Shown here: positions 1 through 62,933 of the stretch, one piece after another
Layout: each line of letters starts with the position of its first letter
Position numbering within the stretch: position 1 is the first letter of the stretch
Source of the DNA: Modestobacter sp. DSM 44400
GTDB lineage: Bacteria; Actinomycetota; Actinomycetes; Mycobacteriales; Geodermatophilaceae
DNA: 64,000 nt
NCBI RefSeq assembly: GCF_900107175.1
Contig: NZ_FNOZ01000011.1
Location: 1 to 64,000, forward strand
Direction: 5' to 3'
The notes under the pieces: generated by a model
Database searches by the model: none
What the model was told of the DNA's origin: nothing
The model's input: the letters and a program-made list of their open reading frames with translations, nothing else
Translations under genes and position numbers: made by a program

Positions 1-1203
1 CGTCCGGCCTGGCAGGACCGCCGGCCCAGTGGGGACCGGCCCGAGCGGACCGGGGCGCCACGTCGCGATATCGACGACCGCCGACCGCCGCGGACGGCGC
101 AGGACCGGCCCGGTTGGCAAGACCGTCGTCCCGGCGGTGGTCGGCCCACCGACGACGCATCGGAGCGCCGTCCCAGCGGGCCGTCGATCCCCGAGTGGGT
201 CGACGTCCGCGAGCTCGATCCGGCTGTCCGGTCGGCCCTGCGCGGCCTGGACTCCCGCAACGCCGACACGGTCGCCCAGCACCTGGTCGCCGCTGGCGGC
301 CTCGTCGACGACGACCCGGAGCTCGCCCTCCAGCACGCCCGCGCCGCCCGGGACCGTGCCTCCCGCATCGCCGCCGTCCGTGAGGCCGTCGGCGTCGCCG
401 CCTACCACGCCGACGACTTCGCCGAGGCTGCCCGGGAGCTGCGCGCGTACCGGCGGATGAGCGGGGACGAGAGCTACCGCGCCGTCCTGGCCGACTGCGA
501 GCGCGCGCTGGGACGGCCGGACAGCGCGCTTCGACTCGTGTTCGAGGCGCTGGCCCACGACCCGGGCGCGGAGGAGGTCATCGAGCTCCGGCTGGTCGAG
601 TCCGGCGCTCGGCACGACCTCGGCGAGCTGCCGGCAGCGCTGCTGGTGCTCGAGACCGCGCTCGGTGGCCGGCCCACCCCCGTCTCTCTGGGGCACGCCG
701 AGCTCGGCGTGCTGCGGCTCGCGACGGCCTATGCCGACCTGCTCGAGGAGCAGGGCGATGAGGAGCTCGCGGCCGAGTGGTTCGGTGCCATCGCGGCCGC
801 GGACCCCGACGATCTGACCGGTGTCTCCGCCCGCTTCGGAGACGACGTGGACGAGGGCACGGACGACGCCGTCGGTGACACGGATGACGCGGACGACGCC
901 GTCGGTGACACGGATGACGCGGACGACGCCGTCGGTGACACGGATGACGCGCCGCCCGCGCCGTCCGAGGGGACCCACGAGACTCGGGACGACCCGGCGG
1001 AAGGACTCGACGAGGACGCCGCTGCCCTCGGCGACGAGGTGCACCCCGACGACATCGAGGCCGAGGTGGCCGAGCTGCTCGGCGAGGCACCGCCGTCGCG
1101 TGCGGCGCTGGAGTTCGATCACAGCAGGTTGTTCCAGGAGGCCCCCGGACAGGCGGCCGATCCCGAGCCGGAGCGGGAGGAGCAGCACCCTCCGACAGAC
1201 TGA
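1..1203 (+). CDS. TPR-like protein, 5' end outside window
   Basis: The frame is open from base 1 without a start codon, so the N-terminus lies upstream; about 400 residues are visible. The first 55 or so are Arg/Pro/Asp-rich and look disordered. They are followed by helical, Ala/Leu-rich repeats typical of TPR proteins (for example around the AAYHADDFAEAARELRAYRR stretch), and then by a very acidic tail with a perfect triple repeat. In M. tuberculosis a TPR protein (Rv1691) occupies the same place before the HAD phosphatase and tlyA; a shorter second TPR protein also follows at 3085. The function is unknown; protein-protein scaffolding is the family's general role. No membrane segment or enzyme motif is visible. 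Confidence 0.75.
   Translation, partial: RPAWQDRRPSGDRPERTGAPRRDIDDRRPPRTAQDRPGWQDRRPGGGRPTDDASERRPSGPSIPEWVDVRELDPAVRSALRGLDSRNADTVAQHLVAAGGLVDDDPELALQHARAARDRASRIAAVREAVGVAAYHADDFAEAARELRAYRRMSGDESYRAVLADCERALGRPDSALRLVFEALAHDPGAEEVIELRLVESGARHDLGELPAALLVLETALGGRPTPVSLGHAELGVLRLATAYADLLEEQGDEELAAEWFGAIAAADPDDLTGVSARFGDDVDEGTDDAVGDTDDADDAVGDTDDADDAVGDTDDAPPAPSEGTHETRDDPAEGLDEDAAALGDEVHPDDIEAEVAELLGEAPPSRAALEFDHSRLFQEAPGQAADPEPEREEQHPPTD
861..950 (+). repeat. Three perfect 30-bp tandem repeats inside the TPR gene
   Basis: The 30-bp unit starting GGACGACGCCGTCGG is present three times without mismatch at 861-890, 891-920 and 921-950. It encodes an acidic decapeptide (DDAVGDTDDA). The period is a multiple of three, so copy number can change without breaking the frame. 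Perfect identity suggests recent expansion by slippage. Confidence 0.95.
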
Positions 1204-1287
1204 GCTGGACCGTCCACACCGGCCGGCGTCGTCCACAGATCCACGGCGGCGCTGGCCGCTGCAGGCCGGTGCGGCGAGGCTCGCGCC

Positions 1288-1644
1288 ATGAGCCTGTCAG
1301 TCATCGACCGGAACGACGTCGTGCTGCGTGGACGCCTTTCGGCGCCACCCGAGCTGCGACCCATGCCCAGCGGCGACACCTTGCTGCTGTTCAAGCTCGT
1401 GGTGCGTCGCGAGCAGTCACGCCCCCGGGGCGCCAAGTCCGACGTCATTACCTGCGTCAGTTACCTGCCCGCGCTCCAGCGGTACGCCGCGGCGTGGACC
1501 GCCGACGACGTGGTGGAGGTGGAGGGCGTCCTCCAGCGGCGCTTCTGGCGCACTCCCACCGGCACGGCCGTGGCCTACGAGGTCAACTGCCGCCGCGGGC
1601 GCAAGGTGACGCGCTTTGCCCAGCGGGCGCCCCGATCGGCGTGA
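1288..1644 (+). CDS. Single-stranded DNA-binding (SSB-like) OB-fold protein
   Basis: The 118-residue product has the pattern of an OB-fold SSB: an N-terminal RNDVVLRGRLSAPPELR strand pair, a FKLVVRRE central strand, then CVSYLPALQRYAAAW and DDVVEVEGVLQRRFWR, where SSB family members bind ssDNA with aromatic residues. It lacks the long Gly-rich tail and acidic tip of the main replicative SSB (which is usually 160 residues or more), so it is probably an accessory paralogue used in recombination or competence-like ssDNA handling. ATG at 1288 is the only good start; no strong Shine-Dalgarno is visible. It stands alone, with the convergent DUF1015 gene 16 bases downstream. Confidence 0.8.
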   Translation: MSLSVIDRNDVVLRGRLSAPPELRPMPSGDTLLLFKLVVRREQSRPRGAKSDVITCVSYLPALQRYAAAWTADDVVEVEGVLQRRFWRTPTGTAVAYEVNCRRGRKVTRFAQRAPRSA

Positions 1645-1660
1645 GAGCCCTGCTGCCGGC

Positions 1661-3016
1661 TCAGCCGCCGTGCGGTCGCAGCACCAGCCCGGTGCGCGGC
1701 TTCGGCACGAACAGCGTGGACTTGCGGGGCATGCGCGCGCCGGCGCGGGCCACCGCGGCCACGTCCGCCGGCGAGGGGGAGTGCAGCAACACCGCGACCC
1801 CGGCCCGCTCCCGGCCCAGCTGCAGCGCTTCGGCGACGTCGTGCGCCACCAACACCGACGCGGGGTCGTCCCGGCGGCCCCACAAGCGGCCGAACAGCCC
1901 GTGGTGGGCGAGCACCACGTCCAGCCCGCGCCACGCGGTTGGCGCCTCGGCAGGGATCGCGTCCAGCACCGCGGGTGCGGGCGAGGTCAGCTCGGCGACC
2001 CGGGTGCCGTCGGTGACCAGGAAGCCGACGCGGCCGCCGGTCGTCGTCCACCTGTCGACGACGGCCACCACGTCCCCGTCGGCGGGGGTGCGGTCGGACA
2101 CCTGGAACCCGTCGGCGGCGGTCGCCAGCGCGGTATCCAGGGCCAGGTCGGGCACCACGCGGTGGATCGCCCGCACCTGCAGTCCGCCGGGACCCATCGG
2201 CGTGACCAGTGACAGCACGGCCCCGGAGTCGACGTGGCCGCTGCGCTGGTGCTCGCGAGCGGCGGCGAAGCGGTGGTGACCGTCGGCGATGACCGCCCGT
2301 GTACCGGCCAGCGCCCGCACGAGGCGGTCCAGCACGGCGGGGTCAGTGACCCGCCACAGCCGGTGGGTGACCCCGTCGGGGTCGGCCACCTGCAGTGTCG
2401 GGGCGGACGCCCCGGTCGCCACGGTCAGGGCGGTCACCTCGTCGTCGGGGTCGTGCGCCAGCACGATCGGCTCCAGGTCGGTGTGCGTGGCAGCCAGCAG
2501 CGCCCGACGGCCCTCGACCGCCGGGGCGAAGGTGTCCTCGTGCGGCAGGACAGCGCTGGACCCGGACCGGGGCAGGCCGACCGCACCCAGCCAGCCGGTC
2601 GTGGGCCCGGACCCGGGCGCGGCCATCTCGTACCGCCACAGTGCGGGCAGGGCGTCGCGGTCGAGGACGCCCTGGTCCAGCCAGTCGCGCAGGGTGCCGG
2701 CTGCCGTCTCGGCCGAGCCGGGCCCCACCATCGCCGCGTCCGTTCTCTCGCCGCCTGCGCGCTCGACGTGGGGCAGGATAAGGCGGACGATGTTGTGCGG
2801 GTCAGCGGCGGCCAGCCGGTTCCGGCCCGCGGCGGTCACCAGGTCGTAGGCCGGGGAACTCACCCGTGCGAGGTCCGCCGGGTCGTGCTGCCGATAGGTG
2901 AGCGCCCGGAACGGTCGGACGTCGAGGCCGCCTGCCCCGGAGGGCGGGTCGGCCGCCGGAGACGGGGGCACGACATCGATGGTAGGAGTGCGCCGGTCGG
3001 AAGGTCGGGGCCGCAC
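1661..3016 (-). CDS. DUF1015 family protein
   Basis: The 451-residue product matches the uncharacterised DUF1015 family: an N-terminal LDVRPFRALTYR segment, SSPAYDLVTAAGRNRLAAADPHNIV, and the central ADGHHRFAAAREHQR motif that is the best conserved part of the family. Some members have been discussed as ParB/sulfiredoxin-like kinases, but no activity can be assigned here. The reported start is GTG at 3016. An in-frame GTG at 2971 is an equally reasonable start because the first 25-30 residues are low-complexity and the domain begins only at LDVRPFR. It is divergent from the TPR gene at 3085 with only 68 bases between, so the two share a promoter region. Confidence 0.85.
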   Translation of the reverse strand: MRPRPSDRRTPTIDVVPPSPAADPPSGAGGLDVRPFRALTYRQHDPADLARVSSPAYDLVTAAGRNRLAAADPHNIVRLILPHVERAGGERTDAAMVGPGSAETAAGTLRDWLDQGVLDRDALPALWRYEMAAPGSGPTTGWLGAVGLPRSGSSAVLPHEDTFAPAVEGRRALLAATHTDLEPIVLAHDPDDEVTALTVATGASAPTLQVADPDGVTHRLWRVTDPAVLDRLVRALAGTRAVIADGHHRFAAAREHQRSGHVDSGAVLSLVTPMGPGGLQVRAIHRVVPDLALDTALATAADGFQVSDRTPADGDVVAVVDRWTTTGGRVGFLVTDGTRVAELTSPAPAVLDAIPAEAPTAWRGLDVVLAHHGLFGRLWGRRDDPASVLVAHDVAEALQLGRERAGVAVLLHSPSPADVAAVARAGARMPRKSTLFVPKPRTGLVLRPHGG

Positions 3017-9559: not shown

Positions 9560-10579
9560 TCAGCGCCGCTTGGCGTACCCGGCCAGCCCGAACTGCAGCA
9601 GTGCCAGCCCGCGCTCGCCCCGGGTCTGCAGCTCCGCGACCAGCTCCGGGCCCGACGCCCCGGCCAGGACCCGGTCGCGGGCGTGCTCCATGAGCGCCGA
9701 GTACAGCCCCAGCACCGAGTTGGCCGCCAGCCACGGCTCGAGGACCCCCTCCGCCGGGCGCGTCTCCACGGTGATCTGCTCGGCCAGGGCGTCGGTCAGT
9801 GTGCCGAGGATCTCCCGTTCCCGCGCCTGCAGGATGCGACTGCCCCGCACCACCCGGGCCATCTCCGCGACGCCGGTGGCCGCCGCCGGTGAGCCCAGTT
9901 GGCTGATCGCCGTCACCACGAACGCGCCCGCTGCCGCGGCCACCGACTCCCCGGCCGGGCGGCGGCGGACCGCCTCCACCAGCGCGGCCCGCATCGGCGG
10001 GTCGGCCTCGAAGACCAGCCCCTCCTTCACCGGGAAGTGGTTGAATACCGTCTTCTCCACCACGCCGGCGCGCTGGGCGATCTGCTGCACGCTGACGGCG
10101 TCGAAGCCGCGCTCGCTGAACAGCGCCGCGGCGGCGTCCACGATCGCCTCGCGGGTCTGCTGGTGGCGCACCTCCCGTTTGTTGGGCCCCCGCCGGGCCC
10201 GTCGACGCCCCAGCCGGCGCGGTGCCGGCTCGGCGGGCGCCTGCGCCGGCCCCTGGTCAGCGGCCGGCGGCGCGGTGTCGGTCGCCGCGCGCACGCCCGC
10301 CTCGGCGACAGCGGGGACGCTCGGCTCGTCCTCGGGCTCGACCGCCGGCTCGGGAACCGGAACGGCCCGCACCGCGAACTCCACGACCTGCGCCGTCGCC
10401 GCCGGCTCGGAAAGCTCGGCGCCCGATTCCCTGGGATCGGCGCCGGGAGAGGCCGCGTCGGGCGCGGCGTCCGAGGCCGCGTCGTCGGCGACGTCGCCGG
10501 CCGGGTAGTCGGCCACCACGTTGCCCAGGACAGTCGCTGTACGCCGGCGAGCGGCGGCCCCTGCAGTCACAGCAGCCAC
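9560..10579 (-). CDS. TetR/AcrR family transcriptional regulator with long N-terminal extension
   Basis: The DNA-binding domain begins only near residue 135: HQQTREAIVDAAAALFSERG, then the HTH VQQIAQRAGVVEKTVFNHFPVKEGL, typical of TetR. The C-terminal ligand domain is about 150 residues. The first 120 residues are an Ala/Pro/Glu-rich, probably disordered extension; a start nearer the HTH cannot be excluded. It has no counterpart between recN and steA in M. tuberculosis, so it is a lineage-specific insertion. It diverges from steA (154-base gap), and might regulate itself or steA. Confidence 0.85.
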   Translation of the reverse strand: MAAVTAGAAARRRTATVLGNVVADYPAGDVADDAASDAAPDAASPGADPRESGAELSEPAATAQVVEFAVRAVPVPEPAVEPEDEPSVPAVAEAGVRAATDTAPPAADQGPAQAPAEPAPRRLGRRRARRGPNKREVRHQQTREAIVDAAAALFSERGFDAVSVQQIAQRAGVVEKTVFNHFPVKEGLVFEADPPMRAALVEAVRRRPAGESVAAAAGAFVVTAISQLGSPAAATGVAEMARVVRGSRILQAREREILGTLTDALAEQITVETRPAEGVLEPWLAANSVLGLYSALMEHARDRVLAGASGPELVAELQTRGERGLALLQFGLAGYAKRR

Positions 10580-58096: not shown

Positions 58097-59056
58097 TCAG
58101 CGGGGGATTCCGAGGAGCTCTGCCACGAAACGGAGCCGCTCCGGGGCGGGGCAGCCGGTCGCATCGAGGATGCGGTTCATCATCTCGAAGTTGGCGCATA
58201 CGCCGATCGCGGCGGCGGCCATCTGCGGACCCGCCGCACGGGACAGGGCGGCGCGGGTCTCCTCGAGTCGCTGACCGGTGACCATGGCGGTCGCCAGGCT
58301 GCGCAGCTCGAGGCCCGCCGGGAGTTCCGGATCGATGCGGTCGTCGACCACCGCTCGGAGGTCGACGGTCGTCCCGGTCGTCTTCTGCACGCTCACCCGG
58401 AGCATGTTGGCATGGGCGAGCAGCTAGTAGAAGCAGTCGTTGAGGAGCGACACGCGCGCGGCCAGCAGCTCCATCTGGGCCCGGGACAGCACCCCCCGGT
58501 AGGTGAAGTCGGCCATCTGCTCGGTGCTGAGGTACAGGACGGCATGCAGCTGGTCGCGCGCGTGCTCCTCGACGGGTACCGCAGAGAGGGCGAAGCGGGC
58601 GCCGTCCTCGGGTGCGGTGGGGACGAACGCCTGCCGCCACCGGACCCGGTTCTCGTGTTCGCCGGTGGGCCGCCCCGGCGTCGGCTCGGGCAAGGGCTCT
58701 TCTTGGGCTCCGATGCCCCGTAGGTAGGAGTCCACCGCGGCGAGCCTGCTGACGACGCCCACGACCTCGACGTACTGCTCGATCGTGACGCCGCGGGCGA
58801 CCAGGTCGACCACCCATTCGCGGGTGATGAGATGCGCCGCGGCCGACACGGACTGTGCCGCCTCGATCAGCGGCTCGGGCAGTTCGCTGTGCGCGTCGGC
58901 GAACGTCCGAGCGGTCCGCGCCTCTGCGGCCACCGCGAGCCGCTGCCGCCCGGTCAGCCATGTTCCCGGCGCGGCGAGGCGCTGCCATTCACGGCGCAGC
59001 TCCTCCCCGACGCGGTCGGGCACCGGCAGGACGGCATCCGCCAGTTCGAAGCTCAT
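58097..59056 (-). CDS. AhpD/CMD-like protein with in-frame UAG (candidate selenoprotein)
   Basis: From ATG 59056 (GGGGAGAG upstream) 210 codons run to a TAG at 58424-58426, and the same frame continues 108 codons to TGA at 58097. Across the TAG the protein reads SLLNDCFY-[UAG]-LLAHANMLR. AhpD-like peroxidases and carboxymuconolactone decarboxylases have a CxxC...H active site; here the first Cys and the His are in place and the UAG takes the second Cys position. A 7-bp hairpin with a G-containing loop follows at the distance expected of a bacterial SECIS. The sequence after the UAG keeps normal coding composition. I read it as one 319-residue selenoprotein with a CxxU motif. It is the last gene of the redox operon. 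Confidence 0.82.
58388..58406 (-). promoter_or_regulatory. SECIS-like hairpin after UAG 58424
   Basis: On the mRNA CATGCTC-CGGGU-GAGCGUG forms a 7-bp stem (one G-U) with a five-base loop that has G at its second position. The loop starts 24 nt after the UAG. Bacterial SECIS elements are usually described with a loop 16-37 nt after the codon and G in its first two bases, so it fits. Confidence 0.7.
58424..58426 (-). other. In-frame UAG read as selenocysteine (inferred)
   Basis: TAG on the minus strand at codon 211 of the AhpD-like gene, at the second position of a CxxC-type active site. Confidence 0.75.
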
Positions 59057-59123: not shown

Positions 59124-60056
59124 TCAGAGGTCGAGTCGCGTCTCCGGGCCGTCGGCCTGGGTCAGGAGTCCCAACGCGGCCTCCACCACCTGGCGTTGCC
59201 GGGCCCGGTCGCCGGCCGGGCCAATGGTGCGGCCCATCAGGTGCGGGGTGACCAGCACCCGGGGCAGCCGCATCCGTCCGGCGACGTGCGCGAAGGCGCG
59301 GATGAACACCGCGACGGTGGGGATTCCTGCCGCCTCGAGGGCGCGCGCGACGAGTCCGACCGACTCGTGGCAAGCCGGCTAGGTGGCGACCAGTAGGCAG
59401 GCGTCCACGCCGTCGGCGACCAGTCGGTCCGCCCATTCCGGCGCCACCTGGGTACGTAACCGGACCTGGGAGGTGGCCCCGGTGAAGGCGTAGTGAATGT
59501 CGGCCAGCTGCACGCTGCCCTCGGACTCGAGCTCTCGGAGGACGGCGAGCGGGAAGACGGTTCCGGGATCGCGCTGCGCGGTGAGCGCGTCGTAGCCGGG
59601 ATGACGTGCGGTCAGAGCACTGTCCGGGGTGTTCTTCGGGATCACCGAGAGGGTGGGCGCGCCGCGCAGGAAGTCCTTGATCAAGCCCAGAGACTCCGCC
59701 TGGGTGGGGCCGTCGGGGCCCATCGGGTCGTCGTCGGCGCGGAACACGCCACCGGCGGAGACCAGGGCGAGGCGCAGATCGGCCAGCGGGGCGGGCAGCG
59801 GGGTGAACGGCGCGTCGTCGACGACGGGCGTGTCGTCGGCCTGGTAGGCGGCGACCTGGGCGGCGTAGACCGCGTCGCGGACGCCGGTCAGGGCGCCGGT
59901 GTCCAGAGCCTCACCGACCCGAGCCAGCACCTCTGCGACAGTGTCCGCCGCCGCCTCGTCGCCCATCCCGGCGAGGAACTTGAACTGCATGTCGGAGCGG
60001 TCGCCGTAGGAGAAGCTCCTGCGGAACGCCTCGAAGCTCATCGGCTCCTCGCCCAT
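59124..60056 (-). CDS. GrdB-like selenoprotein with in-frame UAG
   Basis: From ATG 60056 the frame runs 225 codons to TAG (59379-59381) and continues 84 codons to the stop at 59124. Over the TAG it reads GVDACLLVAT-[UAG]-PACHESVGLVARALEAAGIP. In proteins annotated as glycine/sarcosine/betaine reductase selenoprotein B family, this motif has Sec or Cys followed by Pro-x-Cys and then a V.LVAR..E.AGIPT helix. The UAG is exactly at the Sec/Cys site. A perfect 7-bp hairpin with a GGUCG loop follows. The N-terminus (MSFEAFRRSFSYGDRSDMQF) is typical of the aerobic GrdB-like proteins, whose reaction is unknown. The start overlaps the HAD stop (TGATG). Confidence 0.87.
59350..59368 (-). promoter_or_regulatory. 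SECIS-like hairpin after UAG 59379
   Basis: On the mRNA ACGAGUC-GGUCG-GACUCGU is a perfect 7-bp stem with a GGUCG loop, starting 10 nt after the UAG; the loop starts 17 nt after it. The GGUC loop is like that of the E. coli fdhF SECIS. The stem uses GGA for Gly, rare in this GC-rich sequence, which is needed for pairing. Confidence 0.85.
59379..59381 (-). other. In-frame UAG read as selenocysteine (inferred)
   Basis: TAG on the minus strand at codon 226 of the GrdB-like gene, in the U/C-P-x-C motif. Confidence 0.82.
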
Positions 60057-60742
60057 CACTGAGCTCCTTCTCCGTCGAGCACGTCGGCGAGCTCGGCGAG
60101 GCTGGTCGCGGTCAGCGCGGGGGCTGTGAAGACGTCGGGGTAGCCGCTGCCCTCGCGGTTGATCCAGGCGGTGGCCATGCCGGCGCGGGCCGCGCCGTCG
60201 ATGTCCCACGGGTGGACGGCGACCAGCAGCATGTCGCCCAGGTCGATGCCGCAGGTGCGGGCGGCGTACTCGTAGGCGGCGCGGGCCGGCTTCCAGGCGC
60301 CGGCGTCCTCCACCGACAGCAGCGCCTCGAACTCCTCACGGATGCCGGCGTCGCCGAACAGCCGCTCGGCGACCTGGGCGGACCCGTTGGAGAGGGTGAC
60401 CAGCCGGCGTCCGGAGCGGCGCAGCGCGCGGACGCCGTCGGGCACGTCCGGATGGACGCCCAGATCGCTGAAGCCGCTTATGACGTGGTCGATGGCCGCG
60501 TCCAGGCTGCGGTCGAGGTTCACGTCGTGCAGCACCGTGTGCAGGGCGTCGACGCCCAGCTGGGCGAAGGGCCGCTGGCCGCCGGCGGCGGTGAGCGCGA
60601 ACCCGTCGCGCAGCAGGGTGGCGAACCACAGCTTGGCCAGGTGCTCCGGTGCCCCGATGTCGATGAAGCGCTGCGCCATCGGGCTCATGTCGGACAGGGT
60701 CTCGTTGACGTCGAAGACGATCACGGACGGGGCGGGGCTCAT
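60056..60742 (-). CDS. Type II haloacid-dehalogenase-like HAD protein
   Basis: The 228-residue product resembles L-2-haloacid dehalogenases: VIVFDVNETLSDMSPMAQRF holds the nucleophilic Asp, LWFATLLRDGFALTAAGG the substrate region, LVTLSNGSAQVAERLF motif II, KPARAAYEYAARTCGI the Lys, and LLVAVHPWDIDGAARAGMAT motif IV, as in this family. It may hydrolyse a C-halogen or other leaving group; no assay is implied by sequence. It overlaps its neighbours on both sides (ATGA and TGATG). Confidence 0.9.
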   Translation of the reverse strand: MSPAPSVIVFDVNETLSDMSPMAQRFIDIGAPEHLAKLWFATLLRDGFALTAAGGQRPFAQLGVDALHTVLHDVNLDRSLDAAIDHVISGFSDLGVHPDVPDGVRALRRSGRRLVTLSNGSAQVAERLFGDAGIREEFEALLSVEDAGAWKPARAAYEYAARTCGIDLGDMLLVAVHPWDIDGAARAGMATAWINREGSGYPDVFTAPALTATSLAELADVLDGEGAQ

Positions 60743-61608
60743 CGGGTCTCCAAAGGTGTGCTCGGCAGCTGCGCGTCCTGCGCGTCCTGCGCGCCGGCCG
60801 GCGGGAGGAGGTCGTTGATGGCGGCGGCGAGGATCTCGGGGTGGTCTTCGGGCGTGAAGTGCCGGCCGCGGGGGATGGGCAGCAGGGTGGTGCCGAGGTC
60901 GGCGGCGAGCCGCCGGCCGTAGGAGACCTTCTGGAACCGGTCGACACCGCCCCAGACCACCCGGGCGGGCAGGCCGAGGGAGGGCAGCTGGTCGGCCACG
61001 GCGAGGGTGTCGCGAGTGTGCAGCGCACTGACTTGGCGCATCAGGGCGGCCGCGGCGCCGTGGGTGACGTAGGGCTGCCAGTGGACGCCGATGGACTCCA
61101 GCGCCCGGGCTCGGTCGTCGTGCCCGCGGTGGATCAGCTGGACGATGGCCGAATAGAGCGAGGTCTGGGGCAGGTGGCGCAGCAGCGGTGTGGCGTGCTG
61201 CATCGCGGCCACGCTGGGGTCGGCCACGAGTCGTAGCAGACGGCGTTGGTGAGCACGAGGCCGCCGCAGGCCTCCGGGCGTCGTACGGCGGCGATCTGCG
61301 CGACGCCGCCGCCGAGGTCGTGGCCGACGGGCACCGGTGCCTCTAGCCCGAGCACGTCGACCCAGCGGGGGAGCCGGTCGGCCTGTGCGGCCAGGCTCAG
61401 GTCCCGTCCGACGCCGTCGGGGATCGAGGTGCCGTAGCCGGTCATCTCGATCGCCAGGCACCGGCCGCGGAGCCGCGGAAGGACGTGGCGCCACAGCAGC
61501 GGCGAGGTAGAAGCCGTGGACCAGGACGACCGGGTGGCCTTCCCCGGCCTCCAGCCACCGCACGGGCGCTCCGTCGACGACGGCCTCCTGCAGCTCTGCG
61601 GGGCTCAT
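60739..61608 (-). pseudogene. Alpha/beta hydrolase gene with two frame breaks
   Basis: From ATG 61608 the frame gives VRWLEAGEGHPVVLVHGF; near 61505 two bases are missing (TAC(AC)CTCG would restore it), after which LLWRHVLPRLRGRCLAIEMT and VPVGHDLGGGVAQIAAVRRP, including an Asp nucleophile in GHDLGGG, appear in the second frame. Near 61224 a C is missing from a C run and the first frame resumes at VAAMQHATPLLRHLPQ, ending RGRHFTPEDHPEILAAAIND with the catalytic His. The net loss is three bases, so the ends are in register. The intact enzyme would be 290 residues, of the haloalkane dehalogenase/epoxide hydrolase type. Confidence 0.8.
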
Positions 61609-62314: not shown

Positions 62315-62857
62315 TCACAGGCCGGGAGCGGGCGGGAGATCGAGGTCGGTCTCCACCAGGTGGTTGAAGTGGTTGGTGAACAGGTTCAGCGCGATGTGCA
62401 GCGACACCTCGGTGAGTTCGGTGTCGCTCCAGCCGGCGTCCAGCGCCGCCTGCCACACCTCGTCGGACACGTGTCCCAGGTTCGAGGAGGAGGCGCGGAC
62501 GAGGGTCAGCAGCGCGGCGAGCTTGGGGTCGAAGTCGACCCGGCCCTCGCGGATGGCGACGGTCTGCTCCTCGGTGAGCCCGGCGCGCTTGGCGCCGAGG
62601 GTGTGCGCCGACTGGCAGTAGGAGCAGCGGTCGACGTTGCCCACCACGAGCGCGATCGCCTCGCGGGTGGCGGCGCCGAACGTGCCGTAGTCGCCGATGA
62701 CCTGCTGCAGCGCGACGTAGCCCGCCAGCACCACCGGCGCATGGGCCATCTCGCCGTGGATGTTGAGCACCTTGCCGAACTGCACCTCCAGCGCCTTCAG
62801 CTCGTCGCGGCTGTTCTCAGGGGCGTCGGCGACGGTGTGCACGGGGATGCGCGGCAT
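62315..62857 (-). CDS. AhpD/carboxymuconolactone decarboxylase-like peroxidase (CxxC)
   Basis: The 180-residue protein has the peroxidatic motif RCSYCQSAHTLGAKRAGLTE (CxxC with the following His), preceded by ATREAIALVVGNVD, and a repeated helical half (SDTELTEVSLHIALNLFTNH). GGAGG five bases before ATG 62857 selects this start. It is 119 bases upstream of the VKOR-like gene, probably the first gene of the operon that ends with a UAG-containing relative. Confidence 0.88.
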   Translation of the reverse strand: MPRIPVHTVADAPENSRDELKALEVQFGKVLNIHGEMAHAPVVLAGYVALQQVIGDYGTFGAATREAIALVVGNVDRCSYCQSAHTLGAKRAGLTEEQTVAIREGRVDFDPKLAALLTLVRASSSNLGHVSDEVWQAALDAGWSDTELTEVSLHIALNLFTNHFNHLVETDLDLPPAPGL

Positions 62858-62933
62858 TCGTTCCTCCATGATCTCGATGGGCTGACCCTGCGGTAACCCG
62901 GCGAGAGCACAGGGGCCTTCCCGGTGCCGATCG

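Follow-up and report, generated by a model that had tools for sequence, protein, structure and literature searches.

The decoding of UAG as selenocysteine (Sec) with tRNA-Sec(CUA) was reportedly described in Geodermatophilaceae by Mukai and colleagues in 2016. A probable new case of it is a locus in the window (the whole stretch of 64,000 nucleotides analysed), which resembles the published cases in having a CUA tRNA-Sec in its genome, a UAG at a Sec site and a hairpin after the UAG. In the available excerpts of Santesmases et al. 2017 (PMC5330540), UAG-Sec is listed for three genomes and for the families FDH, UGSC and AhpC; the present set differs from that one in its genes (PrdB/GrdB-like, AhpD-related and solute-binding protein [SBP] genes) and in the presence of the CUA anticodon in 101 of 112 family genomes. 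The gene reported here is a further case of a phenomenon already published in 2016–2017; relative to those excerpts, the newer parts are the PrdB/GrdB-like and AhpD-related families as UAG-encoded, the family survey, the repeated switching, the SBP family and the genome G036.

PrdB/GrdB selenoproteins of PF07355, as presented in the excerpts of PMC2398784 and PMC1088965, share with the window gene the family, the UxxC motif and Sec at the same place; however, UAG stands here for UGA, and the protein scores below the PrdB and GrdB cut-offs, so that no role in D-proline or glycine reductase is claimed. Its neighbour likewise resembles AhpD_rel_CFYUT (NF041238; excerpt of PMC13188914), scoring over the model cut-off with a CxxU motif, but in this bacterial family its predicted Sec codon is UAG rather than UGA. 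The available part of a 2026 review mentions UAG in just two roles, as a stop and as a Sec codon in engineered systems. The pyrrolysine system also combines UAG with a CUA tRNA, whereas the tRNA found here is a tRNA-Sec and no PylS exceeded its cut-off.

A PrdB/GrdB-like gene interrupted by UAG and its neighbours

59124..60056, minus strand: PrdB/GrdB-like selenoprotein gene (predicted), 310 codons and a TGA stop, Sec at codon 226, UPxC motif
59379..59381, minus strand: in-frame UAG of the PrdB/GrdB-like gene, at the Sec/Cys column
60056..60742, minus strand: HAD type II hydrolase gene (TIGR01428, 173.2 bits), directly upstream of the PrdB-like gene

The minus-strand frame 60056–59124 contained a single interruption, the TAG at codon 226, and continued for 84 codons beyond it, just as the preliminary description had claimed. 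With the TAG read as Sec, the product matched Pfam PF07355 (GRDB) at 49.4 bits against a gathering cut-off of 22, which places it in the family. The gene had been called GrdB-like; the family assignment stood, but the NCBIfam scores put the protein nearer to PrdB (best match, 100.6 bits; cut-off 300) than to GrdB (71.4 bits; cut-off 602.2), under both equivalog cut-offs. The UPxC motif hints faintly at a thiol-redox reaction. The fold model (pLDDT 64, no PDB match at E 0.001) was too poor to assign a function and was rejected for this use, and a plasmid home for the gene was rejected as well, with no tblastn match at 1e-20 among 72,556 plasmid records.

Comparison with two homologues revealed similar constraint on both sides of the UAG: dN/dS was 0.12/0.77 after and 0.17/0.88 before it against L174, and 0.19/0.68 after and 0.21/0.95 before it against G131, pointing to purifying selection on the 3' sequence as on the 5' part. 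All 12 aligned relatives had Cys or Sec at the column itself. PrdB-like matches occurred in 12 of 146 relatives' genomes at 14 places, where the column read TAG (7), TGA (5) or Cys (2); among homologous loci from named records, a contig scan revealed a stop codon at this column in all 47 (44 TGA, 3 TAG), and the stop is therefore not there by chance. The placement of the UAG on the Sec/Cys position of the family motif was borne out by these data, and the alignment that the preliminary description had proposed did yield UGA or Cys in relatives at the same column. The three TAG loci from named records were those of Blastococcus sp. CT_GayMR19, B. tunisiensis and B. mobilis, Blastococcus being a member of Geodermatophilaceae; the closest UGA forms among named records came mostly from Nitriliruptoraceae draft genomes (63–72% identity).

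The TGA of the HAD hydrolase gene overlaps the ATG of the PrdB-like gene (TGATG), and a functional link between the two may be surmised. A second PrdB-like copy in the same genome (L027, G000:C56:2334-2951) also carries UAG at the Sec column, likewise with a HAD-type gene upstream. Upstream of the window HAD gene, an alpha/beta hydrolase frame at 60739–61445 (minus strand) seems, by eye, to be split over overlapping frames; Pfam matched 61134–61445, and 60739–61239 was without a match.

A second UAG-split gene, absent from the preliminary description, lies directly downstream of the PrdB-like gene and starts 67 nt after its stop.

58097..59056, minus strand: AhpD-related CFYU gene, second UAG selenoprotein candidate (NF041238, 238 bits; cut-off 175)
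58424..58426, minus strand: in-frame UAG in the CFYU motif of the AhpD-related gene

Its score and its CxxU motif (CFYU) make it a member of NF041238 AhpD_rel_CFYUT. The gene was present in 6 of the 112 family genomes, with one TAG each, all 6 being CUA genomes; among 296 genomes of the phylum, three others had matches, with TGA (column checked in three of four copies). Selection after the UAG was like that before it (dN/dS, three pairs), as in the PrdB-like gene. A conserved PrdB–AhpD pair was not borne out, since no other PrdB-like or AhpD locus had both genes in the flanks examined (only 1.5 kb for loci from the genome search). Another CMD/AhpD-type gene, with ordinary codons, is located a few kilobases away at 62315–62869 (minus strand).

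Hairpins downstream of the UAG codons

59350..59368, minus strand: SECIS-like hairpin of the PrdB-like gene, 7 bp, loop GGUCG
58388..58406, minus strand: SECIS-like hairpin of the AhpD-related gene, 7 bp, loop CGGGU

The hairpin of the PrdB-like gene has 7 Watson-Crick pairs and a free energy of −9.9 kcal/mol, its stem starting 10 nt and its loop 17 nt after the UAG. The bSECIS criteria given in the available excerpt of PMC13188914 are a loop of 3–9 nt, a stem of 4–16 bp, G in the first two loop positions, a spacing of 16–37 nt and an MFE of at most −7.5; a bSECIS check of the region, suggested beforehand, placed the hairpin within all of them (5 nt, 7 bp, GG, 17 nt, −9.9 kcal/mol). The 7-bp stem, the GGUCG loop, the 17-nt distance and the rare GGA codon (68 of the 1301 Gly codons counted over 32 confident ORFs of the window) had all been described correctly, but the hairpin is convincing only through its homologues. 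Taken alone, it is weak evidence and unexceptional: a stem as long occurred at some permitted position in 1129 of 5000 synonymous recodings, an MFE as low was reached in 760 of 2000, and the 45-nt stretch containing it had z = −0.78. Its use as stand-alone proof of Sec was rejected, because many synonymous recodings equal it.

Across 47 distinct homologous sequences, 96.7% of the cells paired. Four of the seven pairs were altered on both sides, and compensatory changes were found in 37 cells compared with 13.4 (sd 2.7) in shuffles, a contrast inflated by relatedness; slid versions of the structure, which retain relatedness, paired only 10.9–46.8%, in a test where a structure derived from the same sequences favours itself. 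These comparisons argue for strong conservation of the predicted hairpin across homologues. Pairs were missing in 7 of 49 sequences, two of the seven in L187, L191, L194 and L209 and one in L190, L201 and L218. In 9 sequences of the AhpD-related gene (6 TAG, 3 TGA; locus L266 lies outside the AhpD motif scan), a 7-bp hairpin occupied the corresponding position, each pair being formed in 8 or 9 of the 9. The hairpin of the SBP gene was less clear, with 5 consecutive pairs by scan and a bulged consensus whose pairs formed in 33–35 of 35 sequences.

tRNA-Sec, sel genes and the reading of UAG

The genome of the window (5.0 Mb, 182 contigs) contained a tRNA-Sec of 66.9 bits, over the model cut-off, with anticodon CTA and followed by GCCA. 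selA (421 bits), selB (283 bits) and selD (386 bits) each exceeded their cut-offs, and selD, the tRNA-Sec(CUA) gene, an SBP gene, selA and selB lay in one 19.5-kb stretch; all the components for which the preliminary description had advised a search, including a selC with a CUA anticodon, were thus found and clustered. Further UAG genes of this genome were the AhpD-related neighbour, two SBP copies, the second PrdB-like copy and a UGSC copy.

L006 9977-11653, TAG at 10457-10459: SBP_bac_5 gene, third UAG candidate, between selC and selA (130 bits)

The UAG of the SBP protein falls within a GEGHW-U-VID motif. No published description of an SBP selenoprotein family with this GHWU motif was found in the open-licence literature. 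SaoB and SaoX were considered as identities and rejected, neither being among the NCBIfam matches of the protein at 1e-5.

TGA closes 37 of the 39 confident ORFs in the window and the sel stretch; the other two have TAG ends, which are the predicted Sec codons of the AhpD-related gene and the SBP gene (the PrdB-like gene, because of overlap, is outside this count). From this small sample, few genes seem to be ended by UAG, a scarcity that would make its recoding less costly. Among relatives, selB of G036 is ended by UAG. The UGSC genes L279, L281 and L283 have a second in-frame TAG near the match end, besides the UAG at the Sec motif, and UAG apparently serves there as both Sec and stop in one gene. 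UAG thus appears still to terminate translation in these genomes, with its Sec reading dependent on context; since UAG also ends genes, UAG-Sec would be recoding in context and not reassignment.

On this evidence, the window gene almost certainly encodes a full-length PrdB/GrdB-like redox selenoprotein of 310 residues, with UAG codon 226 read as Sec by tRNA-Sec(CUA); the UAG selenoprotein proposed earlier is supported by the tRNA-Sec(CUA), the sel genes, the UGA or Cys at the column and the selection after the UAG. By analogy with established bacterial Sec biology, from which insertion and its efficiency are extrapolated, SelA would convert Ser-tRNA to Sec-tRNA, drawing on selenophosphate made by SelD, and the Sec-tRNA would be delivered to the ribosome by SelB, itself attached to the hairpin that closely follows the UAG.

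If the UAG were an ordinary stop, the locus would be a pseudogene or would yield only the first 225 residues. UAG does end genes here (selB of G036 and, apparently, some UGSC genes), but selection continues past the UAG in both window genes, the stop falls at exactly the Sec column in 47 of 47 homologues, and a matching tRNA-Sec and sel genes are present, which makes this reading very improbable. Less credible still is a sequencing or assembly error at the UAG codon: the window does come from a draft of 182 contigs, yet other genomes have UAG at this column too, and it recurs in other gene families. Decoding as pyrrolysine, with a chance just as slight, is suggested by ARAGORN, which labels the tRNA tRNA-Pyl; against it, the tRNA exceeds the cut-off of the tRNA-Sec model, PylS reached only 22.5 bits in this genome (cut-off 178.15), and in homologues the column holds UGA or Cys. 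Pyrrolysine decoding was rejected on the tRNA-Sec match and the PylS score. Annotation that allows UGA alone would truncate UAG selenoprotein genes, and the tRNA is called pyrrolysine by ARAGORN.

Codon switching and a genome with two tRNA-Sec genes

The tRNA-Sec survey of the 112 family genomes revealed scores of at least 64 bits in 108 and a total of 110 genes, 102 with CTA (in 101 genomes) and 8 with TCA, a tally that omits G051 (only 50–52-bit matches) and in which the anticodons of G107 and G118 are unread; G044, G002 and G015 had no tRNA-Sec match in this survey. The TCA genes were from seven drafts of genera g6, g8 and g10, plus G036. A natural UAG-Sec code is supported in further gene families, and the tRNA survey shows its breadth within the bacterial family. 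In other families of the order, TCA was found in 29 of the 29 loci read, the best-scoring of 273 matching genomes; CUA lowers the tRNA-Sec score, and CUA may therefore also occur in other families.

The predicted Sec codon follows the anticodon within the family: TAG was present in CUA genomes in 6 of 6 AhpD cases and 15 of 15 SBP cases, and TGA in the SBP gene of the UCA genome G045. The 15 SBP genes came from 12 genomes, the pieces L227 and L238 being one gene counted once. The second UCA genome with an SBP column, G029, had TAA, and family f32 had TGA in 25 of 25 loci. The G029 gene (L234, G029:C70) contains a further in-frame TAG; it either has decayed or represents an intermediate between UGA and UAG. 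The change from UGA to UAG takes two substitutions, and a single-step path would therefore run via UAA or UGG.

The PrdB-like gene tree comprised 58 rows, of which 7 have TAG, 49 TGA and 2 Cys. Mapping TAG onto it takes 5 changes, and branches with good support make 3 of these unavoidable; such counts do not give direction, and one place, which joins long branches, is unsure. L174 (TAG) and G131 (TGA) cluster with the window gene, inside a set of UGA forms largely from Nitriliruptoraceae. Switching of the predicted Sec codon between UGA and UAG is thus repeated on one gene tree. UGA, UAG and Cys occur within one gene family in near relatives, which therefore provides a natural experiment on how the assignment of a codon shifts.

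G036 has its own set of a CUA tRNA-Sec, selA, selB, selD (L142) and a UAG-containing UGSC gene, together with the following features.

L153 (G036:C17) 1173-1263, minus strand: second G036 tRNA-Sec, anticodon UCA, 91 nt, 81.8 bits, GCCA
L153 (G036:C17) 1582-2157, plus strand: AhpD-type gene of G036 (TIGR01926, 112.6 bits), TGA in CFYU

The AhpD-type gene lies about 0.3 kb from the tRNA-Sec(UCA) gene and has a 7-bp hairpin after its TGA; transposase and integrase domains were found within 15 kb. Completeness of the assembly is rated at 100% and contamination at 1%, values compatible with a foreign contig. Plasmid records gave only tRNA-sized matches to this stretch, in five records, and the AhpD-like protein matched only G036 itself among 308 genomes of the order at 1e-25. 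It is an even call whether assignment of the Sec codon is mobile in this family, selenoprotein genes having changed repeatedly from one of UGA and UAG to the other in adjustment to the host tRNA-Sec, and whether two stop codons serve as Sec side by side in G036, a transposase-rich region having brought in the tRNA-Sec(UCA) and the UGA-containing AhpD-like gene, which the resident SelA, SelB and SelD would serve. If G036 is one clean genome, it offers a test of whether one SelB serves two stop codons.

Among UGSC copies (n = 94, hand count), 72 had TAG, 22 were without a stop and none had TGA; the TAG was located at the UGSC motif in all 19 of the 72 TAG copies that were inspected.
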